From NCBI RefSeq assembly GCF_013745115.1, contig NZ_CP051151.1, positions 1,488,001 to 1,552,000 of the forward strand: a stretch of 64,000 nt of DNA, read 5' to 3'. A model generated the notes under the pieces. It ran no database searches and was not told the DNA's origin. It saw only the letters and a list, made by a program, of their open reading frames with translations. Shown piece after piece: positions 2 to 13,395 of the stretch. The stretch comes from Hujiaoplasma nucleasis. Its GTDB lineage: Bacteria; Bacillota_I; Bacilli_A; Izemoplasmatales; Hujiaoplasmataceae. A program made the translations under genes and the position numbers. Each line of letters starts with the position of its first letter. The first letter of the stretch is position 1.

Positions 2-2608
2 GATAGTTTTGATTTAGATACTATTAAAGAAAGTCAAAGGATGAGCTTAGATAAAGAAGATGTTGATAGTATTCTCAAATTACTAAACATTAATGAAGAT
101 AAGGTTAAAGAGAAGTATAAGTTAGCCTTTAATGTATTATCAATTGCAAATTTTGATTTAGATGTTATTCCGTTAGTTTATTTGCCTATATACCTGAATG
201 TATTTGATAAAGAAATATTTTTTCTAGAAGAAGAGTTTGTTTTTCATCAAAACAATATATCGAAATTACTGAAAACACCCGATATCGATGTATCAATTTA
301 TGAAAATCACATTGATCAACTTAGAGAAGATATAGATTCAAACTCTTTTAAGCCACAAATTTATGACGAAAACCCACAAATTTTTAAATTAAAGTTAGAT
401 TTATCATTAAGTCCTAGAAAAGATTTTCAAAAAATAAAAGATATTATATATTCAAAAAAAGAACTCACACCTGTTTTAAAGGCGTTTTTTGGAAAATATG
501 AAAAACCAGTATTAAGCAATAATAAGAATATATACTTTGTTGATAATAAAGTGAATGCTGATCAGGTTATGGCAACTTATTCTGTTATCAATAATGATTT
601 AACTTATGTTCAAGGTCCTCCTGGAACAGGTAAATCAGCTACTATAGTTAATATGATAGTTTCTTCTATGTTAAATAATGATACGACTTTAGTAACATCT
701 TATACCAATGCAGCGGTTGATAATATATATAATAAGTTAAGAAATCTAAAATATAAGCAATATAACATTCCAATTCCTATGATACGGCTTGGTTCTCAAG
801 AATACGCTAGAAAAGGTATTCGATATATTAAAAACGCTTATCTTTACTATCAATCAATTATTAAAGATATTAATCTTGAAGAGTTAAGAAAAGAATATAA
901 AGCACTCATCCCAATTGAAGTTAATAAGTTATTACAAATCAATAGTGTAATAGATGCAAATACAAATAGAAAAGATGTTGAAACTAAAATCGATTACTAT
1001 GATAAATTAATTGAGATTTTTACAAAAAATAAAACATTAAAGAAAAAAGTCAAAGATTTAAAAAAATCTCGTACTGCTCAAAAGGGATATCTTACTAGAA
1101 TAGAGAAGAAAACTATAGATAATATTTTAGATGAATTAAATATTAATTTCGAAGTTATTTTACTTGGTATTTTTATCAAATCATTAGATTCTTTTCAAAA
1201 ACTAGAAGAAGATAAATATGCTTATATTAAACAAATGATTACCTCAGAATCATATGAAGATCAAAGAAGCGCACTCTATAAAGAATATACCCATGAAGCA
1301 AACTTAAGAATACTTCAACAAATATTTCCTGTGTTTCTGACCACCAATATTTCATCTAGAAGTTTACCTGACAAACAACCAACTTTTGACTTATTGATAA
1401 TGGATGAAGCAGGTCAATGTGAAAATGCATATGCTATTGTCGCTATGTCAAAAGCATCAAGAGCTGCTTTCATAGGTGATCCAAATCAGTTATTGCCTGT
1501 TGTTACTATTTCAGACACTGTTAACAATCATTTAACATATCAATATTCAATACCGGATGTTTATAACTATAAGAAGACTTCAATATTACAAACACTTAAT
1601 CAAATTGATTTTATAAACGATTTAATTATATTAAAGAAACACTATAGATGTAGAAAAAGCATCGTTAATTTTGCTAATAAAAAATATTATAATAATAGAC
1701 TCGATATCCAAGTAGACCAAATAGACAATGAAGATTGTAAATTTATCGATGTAAAAAGCGAGTTTTATAACAATAAAAAGAATACATCATTACCAGAAGT
1801 AATAGCGATTATAGAAGAACTTAAAAAAATACCACCTGATAAAACCATTGGAGTTATATCTCCTTTTAGAAATCAAACTCTATTAATTAATAAGAAAATA
1901 AAGGAAGAATTACCAGATTCTAAAATTAGTGTTGGAACAGTCCATAAGTTTCAAGGACAAGAAAAAGATGTTATATTGCTTTCTTTGGCGGTTGGAGGGG
2001 ACTCCTATAAAGGTAGTTATGATTGGATTAAAGATAACAGACAGTTGATTAATGTAGCCACAACAAGGCCAAAAGAGAGATTGGTTGTTGTGGGAGATAA
2101 AAATTCAATCAACACCTTATCTGAGGGACAAAATTCTGACTTAAAAGATTTAATAGAATATACAAGTCAATTTAATAAAGAAACATTTAACATTTCATCA
2201 GTGGGAAAAAAATATGGAGACATCACTTCAAAAAATTTATATACTAATTATGAAGACATGTTTTTTGATACTTTACAAAGAGTATTAGAGATCAATACAA
2301 AAGGCTTTAGAATCAATGGGCAAACTGATGTAAAACAAGTTCTTAATATTCATGAAGGTCACCCATTATTTGAATATGCCACTAAGGCATCATTTGATTT
2401 CCTAATAATTGATAAGAAGAATAATGTTAGGTTAGCGATTGAGTTAGGTGGAGCAGAACATAAGTACGACCCTATTGTTATTTCAAGAGATAAGGTTAAA
2501 AAACAGTTAGCTGATGAAAAAGGACTTGAGATAATTTATATTAATAATAGAGATGCGAGAAGGTATAAAATGTTGAAAGATATATTGAAACCGTTATTAA
2601 TGAAGTAG
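2..2608 (+). CDS. Superfamily 1 helicase with DUF2726-like C-terminal domain, 5' partial
   Basis: ATP-dependent nucleic-acid helicase of the UPF1/Dna2-like branch of SF1. Numbering from the first in-frame ATG (41), Walker A (GPPGTGKS) is at about residues 192-199, Walker B (DEAG) near 455, GDPNQLLPV near 483, motif V (GTVHKFQGQEKD) near 636 and motif VI (ATTRPKERL) near 675. The last ~110 residues (FDFLIID, then IELGGAEH) resemble DUF2726, a PD-(D/E)XK-like domain often attached to helicases. The frame is open back to base 2, and the ATG at 41 has AAAGG touching it with no spacing, so the true start probably lies outside the window. Its neighbours are nuclease genes, which fits a defence or DNA-repair role. 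The helicase call is firm; the role is inferred. Confidence 0.85.
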   Translation, partial: DSFDLDTIKESQRMSLDKEDVDSILKLLNINEDKVKEKYKLAFNVLSIANFDLDVIPLVYLPIYLNVFDKEIFFLEEEFVFHQNNISKLLKTPDIDVSIYENHIDQLREDIDSNSFKPQIYDENPQIFKLKLDLSLSPRKDFQKIKDIIYSKKELTPVLKAFFGKYEKPVLSNNKNIYFVDNKVNADQVMATYSVINNDLTYVQGPPGTGKSATIVNMIVSSMLNNDTTLVTSYTNAAVDNIYNKLRNLKYKQYNIPIPMIRLGSQEYARKGIRYIKNAYLYYQSIIKDINLEELRKEYKALIPIEVNKLLQINSVIDANTNRKDVETKIDYYDKLIEIFTKNKTLKKKVKDLKKSRTAQKGYLTRIEKKTIDNILDELNINFEVILLGIFIKSLDSFQKLEEDKYAYIKQMITSESYEDQRSALYKEYTHEANLRILQQIFPVFLTTNISSRSLPDKQPTFDLLIMDEAGQCENAYAIVAMSKASRAAFIGDPNQLLPVVTISDTVNNHLTYQYSIPDVYNYKKTSILQTLNQIDFINDLIILKKHYRCRKSIVNFANKKYYNNRLDIQVDQIDNEDCKFIDVKSEFYNNKKNTSLPEVIAIIEELKKIPPDKTIGVISPFRNQTLLINKKIKEELPDSKISVGTVHKFQGQEKDVILLSLAVGGDSYKGSYDWIKDNRQLINVATTRPKERLVVVGDKNSINTLSEGQNSDLKDLIEYTSQFNKETFNISSVGKKYGDITSKNLYTNYEDMFFDTLQRVLEINTKGFRINGQTDVKQVLNIHEGHPLFEYATKASFDFLIIDKKNNVRLAIELGGAEHKYDPIVISRDKVKKQLADEKGLEIIYINNRDARRYKMLKDILKPLLMK

Positions 2609-2659
2609 ATTTAGATTTTTTAAAATGTTATTTAAATATGAAGAAATAGGAGAAATAGT

Positions 2660-3271
2660 ATGGATGCAAGTAAATTAAAAGGCTGGAATTATATTGTTTA
2701 CGTTCTAGTAAAAAATAACTTTGAATCAAATAAATTTAGTTTAGCTGAAATTTATGAATTTGAGCCGTATTTCAAAATGGTATATCCTGATAACTATCAC
2801 ATAAAAGATAAAATTAGACAGACTTTACAAAAACTAAGAGATCATGATTTATTGAAATTTTTTGGTCAAGGAGAATATCAACTATTAGAAGAAAGAGAAT
2901 ATGAAATCAAAGAGGAAAAATGTTCTGAAGAGGTTGTTTATTTGCTGACAAATGAAAGTATACCTGGTTGGGTTAAAATAGGCAGGTCTAATTCCGTTAG
3001 TAGAAGACTTAAAGAATTATATAACACTTCAGTTCCTTTGCCTTTTATATTAGAGGATAAGATAGTTGTTGATAATAAAGAAAATTCATTTATGCTTGAG
3101 AAAAGCATTCATAGTATTATTGATACTATAAATCCTAGTGTAAGAAAAAATACAGAAGCGAAAAGAAGAGAATTTTTTAAATTAACGGTAGATCAAGGAA
3201 AAATGATATTTCAATTAGTTACAAGAATTACTAGAGTGAATGTATATAGTGATATGTCGTTATTTAATTAG
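2660..3271 (+). CDS. DpnI-like winged helix fused to GIY-YIG/T5orf172 nuclease domain
   Basis: Residues 1-76 (GWN..., FEPYF, YPDN, KIRQTLQKLRD, FFGQGEY) closely follow the C-terminal winged helix of DpnI-type restriction enzymes, which reads DNA sequence or methylation. Residues 91-190 look like the GIY-YIG-related T5orf172/MUG113 family: VYLLTN at 93-98 replaces the GIY strand, KIGRS at 106-110 is the YIG-like element, and RRLKEL carries the expected Arg. A clear AGGAG precedes ATG 2660. The gene lies 51 bases after the helicase and could be co-transcribed with it. A DNA-binding domain joined to a small nuclease fits restriction of foreign DNA; this is inferred from domains and context only. 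Confidence 0.7.
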   Translation: MDASKLKGWNYIVYVLVKNNFESNKFSLAEIYEFEPYFKMVYPDNYHIKDKIRQTLQKLRDHDLLKFFGQGEYQLLEEREYEIKEEKCSEEVVYLLTNESIPGWVKIGRSNSVSRRLKELYNTSVPLPFILEDKIVVDNKENSFMLEKSIHSIIDTINPSVRKNTEAKRREFFKLTVDQGKMIFQLVTRITRVNVYSDMSLFN

Positions 3272-3353
3272 AAAGGGTTGCCAAACCATATAAATTTCTC
3301 TTGAAATATCTCTAATTTCTCATCTTATTGGTATATATCTGGTGGTGATAGTC

Positions 3354-4157
3354 ATGAAAAAAATTGAATATAGACGTAAAGTCTATATAAGGATAACTCA
3401 AGTTATTATTGGACTAACAATATTGTTTTTTCTTTTTTCATTAATATATACAGTGTCTTCTGGAACTGATGGAACCACAGGTGTGAGAATTGGCGCGATA
3501 TGTGAAGATGGTTGGAGATCATCTTCAACTGGGTCTGGAACTTGTTCTTGGCATGGAGGTGTTGATTATTGGCTATATAGAGGTGGAACTGAGTCTACTT
3601 ATGAAGAACATCAATTAATAGATGATGTTTGGCCAATTAATGTTATATTGCTTGTAATATCAATAGTATTAGCAAGGTTATATTATTTTTTATATGGAGA
3701 CAATCAGTTCTCCGAGGGAAGAGTTTCTTTAAAGAAGATGTTCAAAAGTTACTTTATGGATTTTGATACTAATTATAGTAATTATATAAAATTTTATAAC
3801 TCAGATTTTAGTAATCATACGCTGGTTTCTGAAAGGAAAACAGATTTAGAATATCTTAAAATTACATATTGTATTGGAAATTCAAAATTACTAGAGGATG
3901 ATTCAAAATATAGCGTTAACTTTAAAAGTGATTGGTTAGAGGGACAATTGTTCAATTCATTCAACTATCAATTTACTCTTGTTACATTTTTGATAATTGT
4001 GTTTGCTTTTATTCTATATTTTTCATTATTATTATGGATATTGATTTTCCCGTTAGGGATTATATATAGTTTTTCTCATGGGTTATATTCTAAATTAAGC
4101 TACAAAAAATATCAGAAATTATGCGATAGAAAACTGAAATTATTTAAAATAAAATAG
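3354..4157 (+). CDS. Membrane protein of unknown function with a Cys/His-rich external loop
   Basis: Not confidently recognised. There is one hydrophobic segment near the N-terminus (about residues 15-36), then a predicted external stretch with GAICEDGW and GTCSWHGG, a second segment near 92-112, and a further pair near 210-250. The GTC-x-HGG motif recalls short DUF3761-like proteins, but the rest does not obviously match. I chose ATG 3354 over the in-frame GTG at 3342 because GGTGGTGA at 3341-3348 then sits at Shine-Dalgarno distance, a pattern repeated at other starts in this window. The gene lies between nuclease genes, so it might be a membrane effector, but nothing in the sequence shows that. 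Confidence 0.6.
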   Translation: MKKIEYRRKVYIRITQVIIGLTILFFLFSLIYTVSSGTDGTTGVRIGAICEDGWRSSSTGSGTCSWHGGVDYWLYRGGTESTYEEHQLIDDVWPINVILLVISIVLARLYYFLYGDNQFSEGRVSLKKMFKSYFMDFDTNYSNYIKFYNSDFSNHTLVSERKTDLEYLKITYCIGNSKLLEDDSKYSVNFKSDWLEGQLFNSFNYQFTLVTFLIIVFAFILYFSLLLWILIFPLGIIYSFSHGLYSKLSYKKYQKLCDRKLKLFKIK

Positions 4158-4196
4158 ATTGACAAATAAGCTGTATCTACTTACTTGAAGATTGTC

Positions 4197-4380
4197 ATGT
4201 CCGTAGACAATTTAGAAAAGTTGGATTTTCATATTCACGGTTTTGATAATAAAACATATGAAGATTAAAAAATTGTTTTTACAGGTAATTGAAGAAATCC
4301 CAGATTAATTGGATCAAACAATCAAACTAAGAATTAATAAGCATGTAGATTTTATTGATAATGTTTTTAAGGATTTTTAG
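4197..4380 (+). pseudogene. Remnant of a small protein gene
   Basis: An ATG at 4197 opens a 23-codon frame (starting MSVDNLEKLDF) that ends at TAA 4266. From 4285 a different frame continues with protein-like sequence (VIEEIPD, stop at 4306, then LDQTIKLRINKHVDF and a stop at 4378). One frameshift plus one in-frame stop would account for a decayed gene of about 60 codons. The MSVDN-type N-terminus loosely recalls small DUF6572-like proteins. The evidence is the codon pattern only. Confidence 0.35.
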
Positions 4381-4417
4381 TGAGTTAATATTTTATTTTT
4401 GATTAAAGGAGAATTTT

Positions 4418-5488
4418 ATGGTACACGAAGATTTGAATAAAATAAAGATACTTTATTGTAATGTAGCTCCTATGGATAAATATCAAGGTTTAGAAGAAGA
4501 AAGCTTATTAAAAGGTGGAAAATATATACAAGAAAATGGTGTTGGTTTTGAACTCTATAATTTTAAAGAAATTGATGGAAAATATTATGGTTTTGTTCAA
4601 CCTCCTATTGGTTCAAGGAAAATTAAGAAAGATGAAATTGAGACTAATAAATTCAAATTAGCTCAAATGAATATTTCCAGAATCGAAGCTTCAAGATCAA
4701 GCGAATATATTGATGATGTTTTAGTTGTTTGGGTAGCCACTCATAGTCATGAAGGTAGAAAAATTGTGGGTTGGTATAAACATGCAAGACTATATAAGAA
4801 ACAACAAGTATTAGAAGATTACAGAAGAAAATTTCATTATCCTGATGGAAGAATTGATTATGCTAACTATTATATGGTATGTGATATAGAAAATGCTGTT
4901 TTATTACCACTTGACAGAAGAGATTTTCATATGCCAAAAAAGACCATAGGACAAGCAAATATATGGTATGGTCGTGAAGATGTTAATGAACAAGTGATTC
5001 GATATATCAATGATTTTGAAAGAGATATTTTATATAATGGCCGTGCTTTAAAAGATATAATTGATAAGGAAATAAATGATATACCTGAGAAATATAAAGA
5101 TGCTGTTCTAAAAATACGTGTGGGACAAAGTGCTTATAGAACAGCTTTGTTAAATAAGTATCATTCAAAATGTGCTTTATGTGGGGTAGAAGGAAATGAT
5201 TTTTTAATCGCAAGTCATATAAAGGCTTGGAAAGATTGTGATGATCTTGAACATCTCGATAAAAATAATGGCCTTCTTTTATGTCCTAATCATGATAAAG
5301 TATTTGATAATCATTTGATTAGCTTTGATGAATACGGAAATATACTTATATCAAAAAAGTTATCCAAGAATAATAAGATATTTTTGAATATTAATGAATC
5401 TTTCAAGATTAAAATCAATAGTGATAACAAAAAATATTTTGATCATCATAGAAAATTATTTTATTTAGATAATTTGGATTTAAGATAG
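4418..5488 (+). CDS. HNH endonuclease with a conserved N-terminal module
   Basis: The C-terminal third is an HNH_2-type nuclease: a CxxC pair (C252, C255), the ASHIKAW motif with H267, NNGLLLCPNHD with C289 and H292, and the trailing FD. These form the beta-beta-alpha metal site that cleaves DNA. The first ~170 residues form a separate alpha/beta module (ILYCNV, GGKYIQENG, YNFKEIDGKYYGFVQP, VLVVWVATH, IVGWYK) that I have the impression recurs in front of HNH domains in restriction-like proteins; its ligand is not evident. AAGGAGAA precedes ATG 4418. The neighbouring nucleases support a restriction or defence role. Confidence 0.8.
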   Translation: MVHEDLNKIKILYCNVAPMDKYQGLEEESLLKGGKYIQENGVGFELYNFKEIDGKYYGFVQPPIGSRKIKKDEIETNKFKLAQMNISRIEASRSSEYIDDVLVVWVATHSHEGRKIVGWYKHARLYKKQQVLEDYRRKFHYPDGRIDYANYYMVCDIENAVLLPLDRRDFHMPKKTIGQANIWYGREDVNEQVIRYINDFERDILYNGRALKDIIDKEINDIPEKYKDAVLKIRVGQSAYRTALLNKYHSKCALCGVEGNDFLIASHIKAWKDCDDLEHLDKNNGLLLCPNHDKVFDNHLISFDEYGNILISKKLSKNNKIFLNINESFKIKINSDNKKYFDHHRKLFYLDNLDLR

Positions 5489-5519
5489 GTAATACAAAAT
5501 ATATTATTCGGAGGATAGG

Positions 5520-6884
5520 ATGAAAAAACAATTTTTCTTTTTTTTAATCGGACTAGCTGTATTTTTACTTGCTGCTTGTGACGGAATATCATCATCGGAA
5601 CAAACACAAGAAACAAATGAGGGTATGATATCTTCTAGCATTGAAGACCAAATGTTCACCATATCATGGGTGAATTATGATGGGAGCATTTTAGAAACAA
5701 ATGAATTTTCTTATGGTCAGTATCCAACTTATAATGGTGAAATCCCATTTAGAGAATCCACTAACGATGATTATTTTTATATTTTTTATGATTGGAACAC
5801 TGAAGTTACCCCGGTTTATAAAAACAAGACATATAAGGCTTCATTTATAGAAATGCATAATTCTTTTAAAGATTTTGTTGAAGGGGTGGACTATTCATTT
5901 TTCGATTCAAACGATTTACAATCCTTTGGAGTAGGGCAGGGTTGGTTTAGTTTCACTGATAAACAACTATTAATAAGAACAGAGTCATATGTATCTATCT
6001 ACGAGTTTGGTGAAGAAAAAATAAATTTAATCTATTCTTTTGATATGGATAGCAGTGAAAAAGGTATTACTGATATGGAAATCGATTCAAAAGGAAACAT
6101 ATTCTTGCTTGGGTATCACATACCAGGAGGTGGTGATGGAGATACTTATCTCCCAGGGTTTATTTTAGAAATCAATAGCGATTTTTCTGGCCATACTATC
6201 CATGATATAGACAACCAAGGAATGAGAGTGCCAAGAGAGTTTTTTATCAATGAAAATAATGAATTTGGAATCATTGGTGAAGGTAGCAGTGAAACTCATG
6301 CCTACATGCAACATTCTTTTATGATTTTTGATGAAAACTACCAAAAAGAGTATTCATATGAGTTGAATAATATGATTAGAGGAGAGTATAGAAGGATTAT
6401 CTCTAAAGGAGATTCTTTTATTATTGCTGGCTTAGTAGGTGATAGTGCTAGTTGTTCAAATTCTGATTGCATGGATCCAATTGTTCAAGAATTTAATTCA
6501 TCAATCGGGCTTATTAATGAGGTCATTATTGAATACGATTATTATGATGATATATTATCTCTATCATTCAATTCTGAAGAAATTATAGTCATGGTAAATA
6601 ATGATTATAGGCACTTAATGAATATTAAGTTAGATAGTGAATTTAACATTATTTATAATGAGGAAGTTCAATTGAATATAAATGATCCATTTCTTGTAGG
6701 CGGGATAGAAGATAAGGGAATTTTTTATGGAATCATTATAGAATACGACCGATTTATTTTTTTAAAAGTTGAAAAAGGTCTTGTTGAAAAAGTGTACGTT
6801 GATAAGTTAACCAGGATAGAGAGTAATTTTGATAGAGGTTTTTATTTGTATGCAAAGTTACTTGTTTCAAACCTTGATGAATGA
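5520..6884 (+). CDS. Surface lipoprotein with InlB-type repeat
   Basis: The signal peptide ends in a lipobox (LLAAC, Cys at about residue 20), so the protein should be lipid-anchored on the outer face of the membrane. A Ser/Thr/Glu-rich linker is followed by one InlB B-repeat-like unit at about 45-100 (FTISWVNYDGS, YDWNTEVTPVYKNKTYKASF). The remaining ~340 residues are beta-rich with recurring phrases such as DSKGNIFLLG and SKGDSFIIAG, suggesting a propeller-like fold. GGAGG precedes the ATG by a few bases. No enzymatic motif is visible; adhesion or environmental binding is possible. It interrupts the nuclease genes and may not be related to them. Confidence 0.75.
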   Translation: MKKQFFFFLIGLAVFLLAACDGISSSEQTQETNEGMISSSIEDQMFTISWVNYDGSILETNEFSYGQYPTYNGEIPFRESTNDDYFYIFYDWNTEVTPVYKNKTYKASFIEMHNSFKDFVEGVDYSFFDSNDLQSFGVGQGWFSFTDKQLLIRTESYVSIYEFGEEKINLIYSFDMDSSEKGITDMEIDSKGNIFLLGYHIPGGGDGDTYLPGFILEINSDFSGHTIHDIDNQGMRVPREFFINENNEFGIIGEGSSETHAYMQHSFMIFDENYQKEYSYELNNMIRGEYRRIISKGDSFIIAGLVGDSASCSNSDCMDPIVQEFNSSIGLINEVIIEYDYYDDILSLSFNSEEIIVMVNNDYRHLMNIKLDSEFNIIYNEEVQLNINDPFLVGGIEDKGIFYGIIIEYDRFIFLKVEKGLVEKVYVDKLTRIESNFDRGFYLYAKLLVSNLDE

Positions 6885-6921
6885 TATTTGAATAATGGAA
6901 GAAATCAATTTCATTGAATGA

Positions 6922-6933
6922 ATAGACAATATT
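6922..6933 (+). repeat. 12-bp direct repeat, left copy
   Basis: ATAGACAATATT lies about 30 bases upstream of the first gene of the 6963-10499 cassette. It recurs exactly at 10502-10513, just after the last gene, and weaker similarity (TCTTT) follows both copies. It could mark the edges of an inserted cassette or be a shared promoter element; in AT-rich DNA chance is not excluded. Confidence 0.4.
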
Positions 6934-6962
6934 AATCTTTATATCTTTGAAGGGGAGAAAAA

Positions 6963-7715
6963 ATGATTGAAAGTAAATTTGGTATCAAATATATTAATAA
7001 CATTAGATGTTACAAAGTTGATCTTAACAAAAGAAAATATTTTCTAGAATATTCATCTCCACAGTATATGAAGATTGATGATTTTCAAATATTGAATCAA
7101 TCTTGGTTAGGATTAATGGAAGAATTGTTTAATTATCTGATTGATAAGCATCATTTAAGTAAAGAGCATTTACTTGAATTCTCGGTCGATTGGAGTGGAA
7201 AACATATTTTTTCCAAAGATAAGTTAACCAATTTTGACCGCGGCCCTTTAATAAATGATTTATTTTATAATGTTAATCAATCCTCTACCCACTTACAGTG
7301 GATTATACAGGACTTATTGATGTATTTAGGTGAAGATATTAATCACATTGAATTGTACGTAAAAATACCCACTTATAAAGAAGATAAAGAAATTATAAGT
7401 CACTATTTAAATTTATACAAAAAATCATTAAAAATATTTTTAAAAAGAAATCTTGCTTACGATATGGATTATATAAAACAGTTTATGAGTCATTTAACAA
7501 AAATAGATAAAGTATTTAATACATACTTTAATCATCAAGTTTCAATGTTATTACTTGATAATAAACATTCCTACTCCATGTACAAATCTAAATTTTTAGT
7601 CAAATTAAATAAGATTGATAAATTAGCTAACTTGAAAGAAAAAATTAAAAGCATTCTAGATGATTTAACATTGTTTTATGCTTACATAGAAGAAAATAAT
7701 CATATTATTAAATGA
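6963..7715 (+). CDS. Unrecognised protein, first gene of a nuclease/WYL cassette
   Basis: I do not recognise the family. The 250-residue protein is mixed alpha/beta at its N-terminus (IKYINNIRCYKVDL, KRKYFLEYSSP) and mostly helical from residue 60, with a possible coiled coil near 200-245. There is no signal peptide, membrane segment or catalytic motif. AGGGGAG is well placed before ATG 6963. Three genes follow closely on the same strand (gaps of 27, 4 and 65 bases) encoding a PD-(D/E)XK-like protein, a WYL regulator and a second nuclease-like protein. It may be an accessory or specificity subunit of that set, by context only. Confidence 0.6.
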   Translation: MIESKFGIKYINNIRCYKVDLNKRKYFLEYSSPQYMKIDDFQILNQSWLGLMEELFNYLIDKHHLSKEHLLEFSVDWSGKHIFSKDKLTNFDRGPLINDLFYNVNQSSTHLQWIIQDLLMYLGEDINHIELYVKIPTYKEDKEIISHYLNLYKKSLKIFLKRNLAYDMDYIKQFMSHLTKIDKVFNTYFNHQVSMLLLDNKHSYSMYKSKFLVKLNKIDKLANLKEKIKSILDDLTLFYAYIEENNHIIK

Positions 7716-7742
7716 TTTATCTTTTTAGGAGAGGTGAATAGA

Positions 7743-8342
7743 ATGGAATTCATTAAGAAAAAAGTAATCGAAATTGTAGAAAAAGAAATTAGAAATTTTA
7801 TCAATGATTTCAAAGAAATTCCCTTTAAACATAGGGTTGAACATTCTTTACACTGCGAATTATTTAATCGGCTGGTTAGACATGATGAATTAAGTCAATA
7901 TTATAACTTGACTGACGGATCAACAACTCAAGTAATTCACAAAGAATGGCCGGCTAGTAAATTGAAGGAAAGTGATACAAGAAGAGGGAACATTGATTTG
8001 GTGGTCCTAACACAAGATTCTATAGAGAATAGTAATTTAAAAGACTTTAGGTTAGGAAATATTGATCCATTTATTGCTATAGAGCTAGGTTTAAATTATA
8101 ATATCGACCATATGAAAAATGACATAGAAAAGTTAAAAACAGCGAATTCTGAAAAGTCATATATTATTCATCTTGATAATAAAGACCATCAAAATGAAAC
8201 ATATGAAAAAATTCATCAGGAAATTGAAAAAAATACACAAATTGATAATCTAAATATTGCTTATATATCTGTGCCTTATAAAGGCAATATAGTATATTTT
8301 AAACATTTAGAAGATATTAAAGTTAATTTTAAGGAATTGTGA
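7743..8342 (+). CDS. PD-(D/E)XK-like nuclease-fold protein
   Basis: The layout resembles small restriction-endonuclease-like proteins: an N-terminal helix with HSLHCELFNRL, then a strand with Asp (GNIDLVV, D85), then a strand with Glu (FIAIELGLN, E114), then a helix (DIEKLK) and a YIIHLDN strand. The usual ExK lysine is replaced by Gly in the E-L-G motif, so activity would need another lysine or the protein may only bind DNA. I chose ATG 7743 because AGGAGAGG at 7727-7734 sits 8 bases ahead; the upstream GTG 7734 would overlap this site. It belongs to the compact cassette starting at 6963. Confidence 0.6.
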   Translation: MEFIKKKVIEIVEKEIRNFINDFKEIPFKHRVEHSLHCELFNRLVRHDELSQYYNLTDGSTTQVIHKEWPASKLKESDTRRGNIDLVVLTQDSIENSNLKDFRLGNIDPFIAIELGLNYNIDHMKNDIEKLKTANSEKSYIIHLDNKDHQNETYEKIHQEIEKNTQIDNLNIAYISVPYKGNIVYFKHLEDIKVNFKEL

Positions 8343-8346
8343 ACCT

Positions 8347-9234
8347 ATGTCTAAAATCAGCAATTCCTTGTTAATGCTATTTTATCTAAATAATAAGAAT
8401 ACTTATACTAAAATAGCTGAATTATCTAATTATTTGGAAGTGAGTGATCGAGAAATAAGAAGATACCGCGATGATTTAGAAATGGCAGGTTTTTCTATTG
8501 AAAACAAAACCGGAAGGTATGGAGGATATTTATTAGTTAATGATGTTGTACTATCTATGAATATAAATCATATGAAACACGTATTAACACATCAAAGTGA
8601 AACCAACTCTCTAATTAAGTCCAATTACTCCTTAATGCATGAAATCATTCAATCATTAAAGAATGAACAGATCATTTCTAAACATATATTATCTCATGAG
8701 TCCATTGAGAAATTAATGATGATTAATTTAGCAATAAAGTTAAGATATAAAATAAAGATTGACTATTTATCTAATCACCATACATTAATTCAGCAAACAA
8801 TAGAACCGTATTTAATTAAAAATATTAGAGATATTGATTATCTTTTTGCGGTTCATGGCAAAATTTTAAAAAGTTATAGAATTTCCAATATTAGATATAT
8901 TACTCAAACAGAAAATCCTTATCTATTTGATCATAATATTTATCAAAGAGAAACCAACGAAAATGCTTATGGTGTTTATAGGGGAAAAGAGAAATATCTG
9001 ATTAAATTTGAAGTTGTAGGAAAAATGAATCAATTTATTGAAAGTGTTTTTAACAATCAATTAATGATCCTAGAACAAAAACAGAATTATGGTCTTTATC
9101 AAGTAGAAACCTATGATTTAAATGAAATTAAATATACTTTTTTATCCTTAGGAGGAACATTTAACGTTATTTCACCAGAGATTTTTAAACAACAATTATT
9201 AGAAGAAGTAAAAAAAATTATAAATAAGTTATAA
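8347..9234 (+). CDS. WYL-domain transcriptional regulator
   Basis: The N-terminal ~65 residues form a DeoR/HTH_11-like winged helix (TKIAELSNYLEVSDREIRRY, then the GRYGGYLL wing). Residues ~120-200 match a WYL domain in layout (IKIDYLS, IEPYLIKNIRDIDYLFAVH, FRISNI-type segment), and a WCX-like tail follows (LIKFEVVG). Proteins of this type often repress defence operons and respond to nucleic-acid ligands. It starts 4 bases after the preceding stop, so translation is probably coupled. Its place between two nuclease-like genes suggests it controls the cassette. Confidence 0.8.
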   Translation: MSKISNSLLMLFYLNNKNTYTKIAELSNYLEVSDREIRRYRDDLEMAGFSIENKTGRYGGYLLVNDVVLSMNINHMKHVLTHQSETNSLIKSNYSLMHEIIQSLKNEQIISKHILSHESIEKLMMINLAIKLRYKIKIDYLSNHHTLIQQTIEPYLIKNIRDIDYLFAVHGKILKSYRISNIRYITQTENPYLFDHNIYQRETNENAYGVYRGKEKYLIKFEVVGKMNQFIESVFNNQLMILEQKQNYGLYQVETYDLNEIKYTFLSLGGTFNVISPEIFKQQLLEEVKKIINKL

Positions 9235-9299
9235 TGTGCTAATATATGTCCGTAAATATATTTATAATAAACTTATCTTAATAAAGAAAGAGGGATATT

Positions 9300-10499
9300 A
9301 TGAATAATAAAAAATTAGAAAGAGAAAGAGAATTATTGGTTCAAAGATTTAAACAAGGATTTAAAATAGCGACGGGATCATCAAAAATTGGTCATATTAA
9401 TGATAATTTATTTTATCCATTATTAGAGGAAGAAAGAAAACAACTTGAAGATGGCGATGGAGATGAGTTATCTTGGAAAACATCAAGAGTTAATTCTTCA
9501 GCTTGTTTACTTTTAAATACATTCACACCTATGAGGCAAGGGAACTCATTATCCATCAACAATTTAGGAGTTTTTAACTCTTATCGATTGGAAGATAAGC
9601 TTCAAGTATTAAATGGAAGCGTGAGAAAAGCAAACATAGATATGGTTATTAGCAACAATGAAACAGTGGTGTATATAGAGTCTAAGTTTATTGAGTTATT
9701 CTATTACGACAAAAAACATCAATTGAGCGAATCATATTTTTCAGAAGATAAATATCCGACAAAAGATATTTATCAAGCATCAAAGCAATTGTTTAATCTG
9801 TATAATTACTTCGATGGAAATCAACTAATAAAACACGCTATTGGTATCTATAGAGATTGCTTAGATAATAAAGAAAAATATTTAAACAAAAAAGTAAAAT
9901 TATTAAACTTGGCTTGGGAGTTGCACGATACCACATATAAATATGAAGATTCATTTAGACTTCAATTAAGAGCTATTAAAGAAGCAACGATGTTTACAAG
10001 TATGTTTAATAAATTAATGAAAAAAGCTTTTAAGAAAATTGGAGTGGATTTTGAATTTATTTATATGAATTATTATGATTTTATTCATCACCATACCGAT
10101 ATAGGAATGTATAGTATTGAGTTGTTAAATTATTTAGATAAGAGATATTTCTTTTATCATAAGAGAAAAGAAAATATGGAAGATAAGATTGATTATATTA
10201 AAAGTTGTATTGAAAATGATTTAAGCATGGATGATCTGGAGGATTTTCTAGACAAATTTAAAATAATTAATGTCCAAGAAATTTACCAAATAGATGAGAT
10301 ATCATACAAGGAAGAATATATGATGTTGTCAGATGTAATTGTGTTGGTAGGTCCACATATAATTAACTTCCCTAAAAATTATGACCCAACAAATGTCAAC
10401 GAATTTCTTCATATAGTTTCTCCGTTGTTTTATAATCGTTATACGATTATATATTTAAGCAAGGATTTGCCTAGAATTAAGCATTATTTAATTAATTGA
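9300..10499 (+). CDS. PGN_0703-like putative restriction endonuclease
   Basis: A canonical PD-(D/E)XK core is visible: ANIDMVI (D114), a turn, then VVYIESKF (E127 and K129 as ExK). The flanking FFxxLFN-type helix (IYQASKQLFNLYNYF) and the N-terminal stretch (RELLVQRFKQGFKIATG) fit the PGN_0703-like family of putative nucleases. A second half (residues 200-399) is helical and of unknown role, perhaps target recognition or regulation. GAAAGAGGG precedes ATG 9300. It ends the cassette begun at 6963; the 12-bp repeat recurs just after the stop. Confidence 0.65.
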   Translation: MNNKKLERERELLVQRFKQGFKIATGSSKIGHINDNLFYPLLEEERKQLEDGDGDELSWKTSRVNSSACLLLNTFTPMRQGNSLSINNLGVFNSYRLEDKLQVLNGSVRKANIDMVISNNETVVYIESKFIELFYYDKKHQLSESYFSEDKYPTKDIYQASKQLFNLYNYFDGNQLIKHAIGIYRDCLDNKEKYLNKKVKLLNLAWELHDTTYKYEDSFRLQLRAIKEATMFTSMFNKLMKKAFKKIGVDFEFIYMNYYDFIHHHTDIGMYSIELLNYLDKRYFFYHKRKENMEDKIDYIKSCIENDLSMDDLEDFLDKFKIINVQEIYQIDEISYKEEYMMLSDVIVLVGPHIINFPKNYDPTNVNEFLHIVSPLFYNRYTIIYLSKDLPRIKHYLIN

Positions 10500-10501
10500 A
10501 T

Positions 10502-10513
10502 ATAGACAATATT
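10502..10513 (+). repeat. 12-bp direct repeat, right copy
   Basis: ATAGACAATATT, identical to 6922-6933, starts three bases after the stop codon of the PGN_0703-like gene. Together the copies bracket the four-gene cassette. Confidence 0.4.
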
Positions 10514-10574
10514 GGTCTTTGTTTGATATACCGCTAATTTGATAAGATAGTCTATTGATCAGAAGGAGATAAAA

Positions 10575-11279
10575 ATGTTGTATGTAATATTAGGAATTTT
10601 GTTAATATCATGGTTATTGTTTATTTATTTAATTATTAAAGATAGAAGATTAGATGGCTTTTATTTAAAAGGATTTACAAGTTTTGTATTTGTTTTTCTT
10701 TACTTTTATGGCCTTTATAAGATATTTATTGATTCTATGATCCTTGTGAATGAATCTTATATCATATTAATTATAGGTATTGGTTTAGGACTTATTTCAG
10801 GATTAATCGGTGACTTATATTTAGAAGTTCAATATTTTTATCCTAAAAATAAATACAAACAAATTAAATATGGAATGATTATCTTTGCGATGGGTCATAT
10901 ATTTTATTTGATTGCTATGACAGAAGTCGTTGTATTTAATTATTTTTCTTTGTTAATTGCATTATTGATGACTGTTATCACATATTTAGGATCTAAAGTA
11001 TTACAATTAGATTTTGGTAAATTAAAATTGTTTACTTATGGTTATTCTTTTATTATATTCACTATGGTAGGACAAAGTATATTCCAAGCCATTGATTTCA
11101 ATGGTTCTACTTATAGTATCTTATTTATGATAGGTGCTATCCTATTTGGATTATCTGATTTATTATTGGCTCCAATCTATTTTAAGAAAGAATCATCTAA
11201 GACTTTTGTTATTGCTAATCTAGCAACTTATTATCTAGGACAAACATTCATTGCTTTATCTATTTATTTTATTGTCTAG
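10575..11279 (+). CDS. YhhN (TMEM86/lysoplasmalogenase) family membrane protein
   Basis: An integral membrane protein with about eight hydrophobic segments. Family hallmarks are the GDLYLE acidic motif after the third segment, GMIIFAMGHIFYLIAM, and GAILFGLSDLLLAPIYF near the C-terminus, matching the conserved acidic residues of YhhN proteins. Characterised animal members hydrolyse the vinyl-ether bond of lysoplasmalogens; the bacterial role is less certain. AGAAGGAGA precedes ATG 10575. An inverted-repeat terminator follows at 11344. Confidence 0.8.
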   Translation: MLYVILGILLISWLLFIYLIIKDRRLDGFYLKGFTSFVFVFLYFYGLYKIFIDSMILVNESYIILIIGIGLGLISGLIGDLYLEVQYFYPKNKYKQIKYGMIIFAMGHIFYLIAMTEVVVFNYFSLLIALLMTVITYLGSKVLQLDFGKLKLFTYGYSFIIFTMVGQSIFQAIDFNGSTYSILFMIGAILFGLSDLLLAPIYFKKESSKTFVIANLATYYLGQTFIALSIYFIV

Positions 11280-11343
11280 ATTTATAAATTTTTTTGATCA
11301 TTTAAGTAATAATTAAATAAAACTATTGTTATATTATGATTTT

Positions 11344-11399
11344 AAAAAAACTCTAAAGTTTGATGTGATATTCTTTTCATGTTTGCTTTAGAGTTTTAT
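11344..11399 (+). repeat. Long inverted repeat with terminator features, copy 1
   Basis: AAAACTCTAAAG pairs with CTTTAGAGTTTT around a ~27-base internal loop, with a T tract on the plus strand and a longer one on the minus strand. It can serve as the terminator of the YhhN gene. A near-identical copy lies at 13714-13772 in the same orientation, so it is also a dispersed repeat. Confidence 0.65.
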
Positions 11400-11541
11400 T
11401 ATAAATAAATTAAATAAATTTTTTTAACGAAATCCCTGTATCCTGTATAATTCTATTTCAGTAGGTGTTATAATTTTTTTGTATTTAATTAAGTAATATT
11501 AGTAAATATTAGATTTAGATTTTATTTAAGGAGGTTTTTGA

Positions 11542-13395
11542 ATGAAAAGAAGTATTAAAGTTTTTTCGATTATAGTTTTTAGTTTTTTTATTATTGGGTG
11601 TTCCAATGAGTCTGTGACTTCAACGGATATCAGTGCAACTAGTGAACTTACCAATATAGAGGAGCAAACAAGTCAAAAAGAAACAACAACTGAAGTGAAC
11701 ACATATACAATTACTTGGGAAGTGAATGGTGTTGAAGTTGAAGTAGATTTAAATGTTAATCAAGGTGCTATGCCAGTTTATGATGGCTTAACACCTACAA
11801 AATCTTCAACTAATGAATTTTATTATACATTTACTGGTTGGGCTCCTACCATTAATGCTGTAGTAGCTAATCAAACTTATGTAGCTCAATTTAGTGAATC
11901 AACAAGAGAATACAGTGTTGCTTTTAATTCTAATGGTGGGTCTTTGGTTGAAGGGTTTGATGTTGGATATGGATCACTTTTAGAAGAACCACAAAATCCA
12001 ACAAAAGAAGGTTATCGTTTCATAGGTTGGTATTCTAATGAGTCTTTAACGACAAAAGTTGAATGGCCACTCGAAGTGCTTGGAGATGTAACTTTATTCG
12101 CTGCATGGAATGAGTCTGTACCTTATGGAGATTATTTGAGCGGTTTATTATCTAGTTATGGAGCAAACCCAACTCAATTTATTCCAGATTCTTTATTAAA
12201 AGACTTGAATTTGGTTTCCTATACAGAAACTACAGTTGATTATTCTAGTTTTGTAGACACAACAAGTGTTCTCTATGGCGGATTTGGAGAACAATGGGGT
12301 ATGGTTTCTACAAATTTGGAACAGTCACAAATGTTTTTTAATGTTTTAACTACCGTCGATTTATTAGCCAGCACTTCAGTTTTAGCATTCAATAATTACC
12401 TTGATAGTAATCCAGAAGATACAGCTAATTACTCTTTTAATGAAAGTATATATAATGTTACTATTTCATATAGAGAAGGTATCATTTATTATATATTAGA
12501 TTTTACAACAAATTTACCTATGTTAGGCGAACAAACAATACAAATAGCCTTATCTCACGATATTATTAATGGAATTAAAGAAGGAAGAATTCAAATTGGT
12601 GATGCAAATGCTCTTAAATATATTTCAACTAAAGATAGTTACCAATTTGCAATTAAGTACGCCGGAATAAGAAGAGCGTATTTTGAAATATTTAGAGATG
12701 AAGAAGATAATATTGAGGGAAGAATATTTGAATATCTTGAAATAGAAGGAGTTTATTCTTTAGGTAGTTCAGTTCAGTTCTTTATAGATGAAGAATATCT
12801 CTCAGTTGTTGGTAACAAATCTTCTTCTATGATAGGTTGGTCAGGGACAATAGTTGAATTGTATGATGTGAACACTGGAAGATTATTAGGTTATGAAATA
12901 CAGGAATCATTAAGCATGATTACATTTAATACTTTATGGTTTAATTTGAATGATACATCTGGTATTAATACGATTAAATTTGAAGAGGCACCATTAGAAA
13001 ATAATAATCCTTATTTAGTTTATGTTAACGGGGATAATGAAGTGTTTGAATCAAAAATGGTTGGAGGTTTAAGTTTAAAAACTTCATCAAGAAGATATGA
13101 TATAGAATTAAGAACTCAATATTTCTTTTATTTGGATGGTGAAGATATAATTAAAACAGCTGTTTTAGTTCCGATGATATTCGTTCAACAAGAAAATTTA
13201 TCAACACTCGTTTCAGACATCAATAGTATGAATGTAGGGCTGAATTTTGACTTAAATATTTCTTCAATAATATATAACAGGATAATAAATGATTACACTA
13301 CATTAATTGATCCTTTTATACTTCAAAAGGAAGAAATCACATCTGAGATTATTGTATCCTTTATTGGAGAAGTTTATATTCACGATATTCAATGA
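11542..13395 (+). CDS. Lipoprotein with two InlB/Listeria-Bacteroides-type repeats
   Basis: The signal peptide ends at a lipobox (FIIGC, Cys at about residue 20), followed by a Ser/Thr/Glu linker. Two beta-grasp InlB B-repeat units follow: one at about 52-108 (YTITWEVNG, YTFTGWAPTINAVVANQTY) and one at 112-190 (VAFNSNGG, EGYRFIGWYSNE, VTLFAAW). The remaining ~420 residues are beta-rich and unrecognised. InlB repeats act as spacers or in surface contacts in Listeria and many gut and sediment bacteria. AAGGAGG precedes ATG 11542. The gene is flanked by two copies of the same inverted repeat (11344 and 13714). Confidence 0.8.
   Translation: MKRSIKVFSIIVFSFFIIGCSNESVTSTDISATSELTNIEEQTSQKETTTEVNTYTITWEVNGVEVEVDLNVNQGAMPVYDGLTPTKSSTNEFYYTFTGWAPTINAVVANQTYVAQFSESTREYSVAFNSNGGSLVEGFDVGYGSLLEEPQNPTKEGYRFIGWYSNESLTTKVEWPLEVLGDVTLFAAWNESVPYGDYLSGLLSSYGANPTQFIPDSLLKDLNLVSYTETTVDYSSFVDTTSVLYGGFGEQWGMVSTNLEQSQMFFNVLTTVDLLASTSVLAFNNYLDSNPEDTANYSFNESIYNVTISYREGIIYYILDFTTNLPMLGEQTIQIALSHDIINGIKEGRIQIGDANALKYISTKDSYQFAIKYAGIRRAYFEIFRDEEDNIEGRIFEYLEIEGVYSLGSSVQFFIDEEYLSVVGNKSSSMIGWSGTIVELYDVNTGRLLGYEIQESLSMITFNTLWFNLNDTSGINTIKFEEAPLENNNPYLVYVNGDNEVFESKMVGGLSLKTSSRRYDIELRTQYFFYLDGEDIIKTAVLVPMIFVQQENLSTLVSDINSMNVGLNFDLNISSIIYNRIINDYTTLIDPFILQKEEITSEIIVSFIGEVYIHDIQ

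Follow-up and report, generated by a model that had tools for sequence, protein, structure and literature searches.

Fusions of WYL domains to enzymatic domains, including Mrr-like restriction endonucleases and HNH nucleases, were reported by Makarova et al. in 2014 (PMC4012209), and the WYL repressors CapW (PMC9122588) and BrxR (PMC9122601), encoded together with the defense genes of CBASS and BREX islands, bind imperfect palindromes in defense promoters. The locus described here lies in a 64,000-nt stretch of the single-contig, 1.81-Mb genome of Hujiaoplasma nucleasis (G000:C1:1488001-1552000; hereafter the window) and likewise encodes a WYL regulator, protein C, with defense genes and pairs it with an enzyme, the nuclease D. 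The relevant passages of the 2014 paper list the Mrr-like enzymes and do not name the PF22558 (REase-ARP/PGN_0703-type) family of D, and in contrast to the fusions, C and D are encoded separately and are accompanied by a candidate regulatory box. Compared with CapW and BrxR, C belongs to a low-GC lineage and is likened to them as a WYL regulator by its domains alone, whereas the putatively controlled gene is a stand-alone nuclease and not part of CBASS or BREX. We propose, with a probability of roughly 0.55, that C and D form a nuclease unit under WYL control, of a restriction or abortive type, inside a defense island.

The cassette comprises four open reading frames on the + strand, A (6963-7715, 250 aa), B (7743-8342, about 199 aa), C (8347-9234, 295 aa) and D (9300-10499, 399 aa), and they are as closely packed as the sequence-only reading of this DNA had described, with gaps of 18 nt between A and B (27 nt with ATG 7743 as the start of B), 4 nt between B and C and 65 nt between C and D. 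For B, ATG 7743 is preferred over the listed start, GTG 7734, because the latter sits inside the Shine-Dalgarno sequence AGGAGAGGTG. The cassette region is AT-richer than the window (24-27% vs. 29% G+C), and the searches of same-genus genomes turned up none of A, C and D, which together is consistent with acquisition. To the left, the window contains a lipoprotein-like ORF, an HNH protein, a membrane protein, a DpnI_C-GIY-YIG protein and an SF1 helicase with DUF2726; farther left, beyond the window, follow a 372-aa ORF, an OLD-like ATPase and a complete type I restriction set (HsdM/HsdS/HsdR), and then ordinary chromosomal genes. As the right side holds a YhhN-family gene and otherwise ordinary chromosomal genes, the cassette is the right-hand end of a defense island of about 20 kb, and the defense setting suggested earlier is borne out. 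These left-hand defense genes occupy positions 41-5488 of the window and 12-8563 of locus L030; the 372-aa ORF is a partner of the OLD-like ATPase, and the N-terminal half of the HNH protein is EVE-like in appearance. Pfam and PADLOC scans found no methyltransferase among A-D or the adjoining genes, which sets the cassette apart from Type II restriction-modification; a putative Type IV (modification-dependent) restriction by D is compatible with this gene content.

The best-supported unit of the cassette is the pair C-D, a recurring module of a WYL regulator and a PF22558 nuclease. Searching all 90 genomes of the order with PF22558 returned eight genomes, the neighborhoods of which were inspected. 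In G048, a single ORF of 665-675 aa combines a C-like WYL regulator (N-terminal 300 aa) with a PF22558 match in its C-terminal half (E = 3e-17), and C is homologous along its whole length to this WYL part (locus L071; 28% identity over 299 aa, E = 3e-24). In G507, three genes follow one another: that of a D-like nuclease, that of a C-like WYL regulator and, overlapping the WYL gene, that of a second PF22558-type protein. The same trio occurs in G499 with a 488-nt gap ahead of the WYL gene. The gene order varies, since in G499 and G507 the D-like gene comes first and in the window D follows C, and the second PF22558-type gene is absent from the window cassette. When the 90 genomes were searched with a C-type WYL profile, the top four matches were the loci of G048, G499 and G507 and the window's own, with the nuclease adjacent in three and fused in one, a score rank that is partly circular because the profile was built from these four loci found via PF22558. 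The next match, in G488, is the only independent strong one (E = 1e-34); no nuclease adjoins it, so that the sole independent case does not support the WYL-nuclease link and counts against it. No PF22558-type nuclease is adjacent to the WYL genes of G488, G105 and G478, and the D-like gene of G482 is not accompanied by a WYL gene. The earlier idea that regulator and nuclease belong together is upheld by the recurrent adjacency, the one fusion and a shared cis-element.

Two other WYL neighborhoods were noted in passing. Near the fusion of G048, at 11473-15706 of L071, genes for a DndD/SMC-like ATPase, a D12 methyltransferase and small proteins look like another candidate defense operon. At 551-5998 of L095, a WYL regulator gene lies opposite a reverse-transcriptase gene, which is followed by genes for proteins of unknown function; this looks like a retron-type or related defense locus.

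D matches PF22558 (REase-ARP) with an E-value of 1.5e-11 and 44.9 bits, against a curated cut-off of 27, and its motif NIDMVISNNETVVYIESK, with D114, E127 and K129, preserves an intact PD-(D/E)XK active site. Both D and the second gene of its relatives match the PF22558 profile, and the D...ExK motif adds to the likeness to REase-ARP/PGN_0703-type proteins, from which D differs in being divergent (45 bits), longer and tied to a WYL regulator. The D/E/K residues are invariant across D and its four counterparts (the first nucleases of G507, G482, G499 and G486), and a profile built from these four, with D left out, recovers D at E = 9e-17; judged by sequence, the five proteins are one family. 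A separate branch is formed by the second PF22558-type nucleases of G499 and G507 together with the C-terminal half of the fusion, and two of its three members have lost the ExK residues (VKTG, VKIA). The branch of D (R1) and that of the nuclease half of the fusion (R2) are connected solely via PF22558, and direct BLASTP of D against the fusion gave nothing. A match to D in G087 (L029) was dropped, being without PF22558 and having no adjacent WYL gene. D had no match in plasmids, viral sequences or the PDB, and there is no PADLOC 2.0 model for D or its relatives, in agreement with the earlier remark that no named system fits. A literature search by the names PGN_0703, REase-ARP and PDC-M33 found no papers.

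C has the domain composition of a WYL regulator, an N-terminal winged helix-turn-helix followed by a WYL/WCX region. HTH_11 scores above its cut-off (E = 3e-7), the Pfam WYL domain falls just below (E = 7e-4, 19.9 bits, cut-off 21.8), WCX is weak, and the PADLOC WYL model matches at E = 5e-15; in the homologues of G048, G499 and G507, both WYL and WCX are above cut-off. The C-type WYL profile found no viral relative.

An exact 10-mer, ATATATGTCC, is common to the WYL-adjacent gaps of the window, G507 and G499. Its window copy, a candidate WYL box, lies in the C-D gap (9242-9251, + strand) inside GTGCTAATATATGTCCGTA (9236-9254). None of 5000 dinucleotide-shuffled gap sets shared a word of at least 10 nt (the longest was 9, in 3 sets), and the sequence ahead of the G048 fusion agrees with its G499 counterpart in 19 of 23 positions, a value reached in 0 of 400 shuffles; these statistics are descriptive, as the gaps were picked after the sequences had been viewed. 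The extended box was drawn up with knowledge of the window copy, and it has a single mismatch-free match in the genome of the window. The box is about 45 nt upstream of the WYL start in the three relatives and 58 nt upstream of D in the window; it thus precedes D and not C here, while in G499 and G507 it is in the gap before the WYL gene. By analogy with CapW and BrxR (PMC9122588, PMC9122601), this position fits a promoter-linked candidate operator.

A was said to have no recognizable family, which holds for Pfam, NCBIfam and PADLOC, and the one weak match is to a PHROG whose function is unknown (E = 0.005). A is nevertheless not a lone protein, but a member of a previously unnamed defense-associated family that accompanies other systems. 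Eight relatives were identified with confidence in other genomes (L003/L008, on one contig; L004/L010; L005/L028; L006/L011; L009; L012; L026; L027), and in L011, L012 and L028 the protein is longer (473-475 aa), with the A domain making up its N-terminal half. Five of the eight (L009, L010, L012, L026, L028) directly precede the A and B genes of the PADLOC candidate system PDC-M33 (PADLOC E = 1e-47 to 1e-138). After these come a C subunit-like gene and a gene for a D12-type methyltransferase, scanned in L010 and assigned at the other four loci by gene order and sequence resemblance. At two loci a small ORF of 72-75 aa stands between the A relative and PDC-M33A (L028, 10233-10460; L026, 7860-8078), and that of L028 matched no PADLOC model. 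In L028, the PDC-M33A gene beside the A relative is broken into two ORFs of 84 and 554 aa (10473-12428), so that the system may be inactive, or there may be an assembly error. The relative in L011 precedes SspD/BrxP-like, SspB and SspC genes (Ssp, phosphorothioation), that in L008 is located after a GmrSD_N gene, and that in L027 adjoins a Cas4-like protein. Although A relatives stand directly before PDC-M33 and Ssp, neither system adjoins A in the window, and PADLOC, run on the cassette and on most of the neighboring genes of the window, gave no PDC-M33 match. No A relative was found in plasmids or viral contigs. The fold prediction proposed for this 250-residue protein produced a confident AlphaFold model (pLDDT 90) and, on the other side, no significant Foldseek match in the PDB or BFVD; in a second comparison with VIA-align, the best Z of 4.2 covered the C-terminal helices alone and was not significant. 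A could be a separate recruited module, perhaps an accessory sensor or targeting factor.

Of the two nuclease-fold proteins of the sequence-only reading, D stands, with its PF22558 match and intact motif, and B is not supported as a demonstrated nuclease. B is an orphan: Pfam, NCBIfam, PADLOC and PHROG yielded nothing useful, and no credible relative was found in 392 genomes of the class and phylum of the window, in plasmids, phages and viral contigs, or among solved structures; matches at E = 0.001-0.1 in the 392-genome search were discarded as chance. Its single-sequence model (pLDDT 37) is unusable. The label "PD-(D/E)XK-like" goes back to the stretch NIDLVV...AIELG, which resembles D...ExK with D and E present and the usual lysine replaced by G, and at which a profile comparison aligned B with D-type proteins, without significance. 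B is thus a possible divergent PD-(D/E)XK relative lacking that lysine, and may be a decayed nuclease.

The cassette is bracketed by an 18-bp element, TAGACAATATTNNTCTTT, with exactly two exact matches in the 1.81-Mb genome. Copy 1, TAGACAATATTAATCTTT (6923-6940, + strand), lies 22 nt ahead of the start codon of A, and copy 2, TAGACAATATTGGTCTTT (10503-10520, + strand), 3 nt past the stop codon of D, with the start of the YhhN gene 54 nt further on. The core AGAC-N7-GTCT is palindromic in copy 2 and the cores of both copies are near-palindromic; it resembles GACAATATATGTC before the WYL gene of G507. These elements could be operators or boundary repeats. That they are the boundaries of a mobile cassette, i.e., a duplicated target, and not operators, we consider possible and somewhat doubtful: one exact copy at each edge and no other in the genome would fit, as would the same-genus G112, in which YhhN directly follows LemA and the repeat is absent. 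However, G112 is the only close relative with YhhN and its neighboring genes differ there, which blocks an empty-site comparison; moreover, the cassette contains no recombinase, near-palindromic cores resembling the G507 site speak for operators, and copy 2 is located where the YhhN promoter would be.

The same elements, bracketing just A-D, together with the short gaps and the common strand, favor a single dedicated four-gene defense system sampled in this genome only, which is what the earlier reading had in mind. We regard this as unlikely, because no search recovered all four genes in a second genome, or A or B adjoining C or D at a second locus, because A relatives accompany other systems, and because the C-D type module exists without A and B; the co-occurrence check proposed for the set A-B-C-D has thus gone against its conservation. 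At the other extreme, accumulation in the island could have brought together a stand-alone PF22558 nuclease, a WYL regulator and a gene of the A family, each acting separately. The surrounding 20 kb are a patchwork of unrelated defense genes, A is never beside C or D elsewhere, and the D-like gene of G482 does without a WYL gene, but WYL genes adjacent or fused to PF22558-type nucleases in four genera, together with the shared box, would be unexpected for random neighbors, and we hold accumulation to be improbable as well.

For the preferred reading, the WYL-controlled nuclease unit C-D, we suggest the following mechanism. C, probably as a dimer, would bind the conserved C-D gap element and possibly the AGAC-N7-GTCT elements at both cassette ends as well, thereby setting the expression of C itself and of D. 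An infection or DNA-damage signal sensed by the WYL domain would alter this binding, and D, with its intact PD-(D/E)XK site and no cognate methyltransferase in the cassette, would then cut DNA. As an anti-phage function, D might cleave invading DNA directly, in a modification-dependent manner or with partner proteins, or it might cut both host and phage DNA in an abortive response. A would contribute as a separate accessory module from a family accompanying modification-based systems, and B as an unclassified partner of C. More tentatively, the WYL sensor and the PF22558 nuclease could be the two halves of a single switch in a compact immune unit, joined in one polypeptide in G048 and split over two genes in the window, with the A family as an interchangeable front-end shared with PDC-M33, Ssp and GmrSD-type systems.

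If the proposed reading is true, it adds a small unit of WYL regulator and nuclease that the PADLOC 2.0 models do not cover and that has a concrete candidate operator. The A family marks the front of several modification-based defense loci, and would thus be an aid to finding and understanding systems of the PDC-M33 type.
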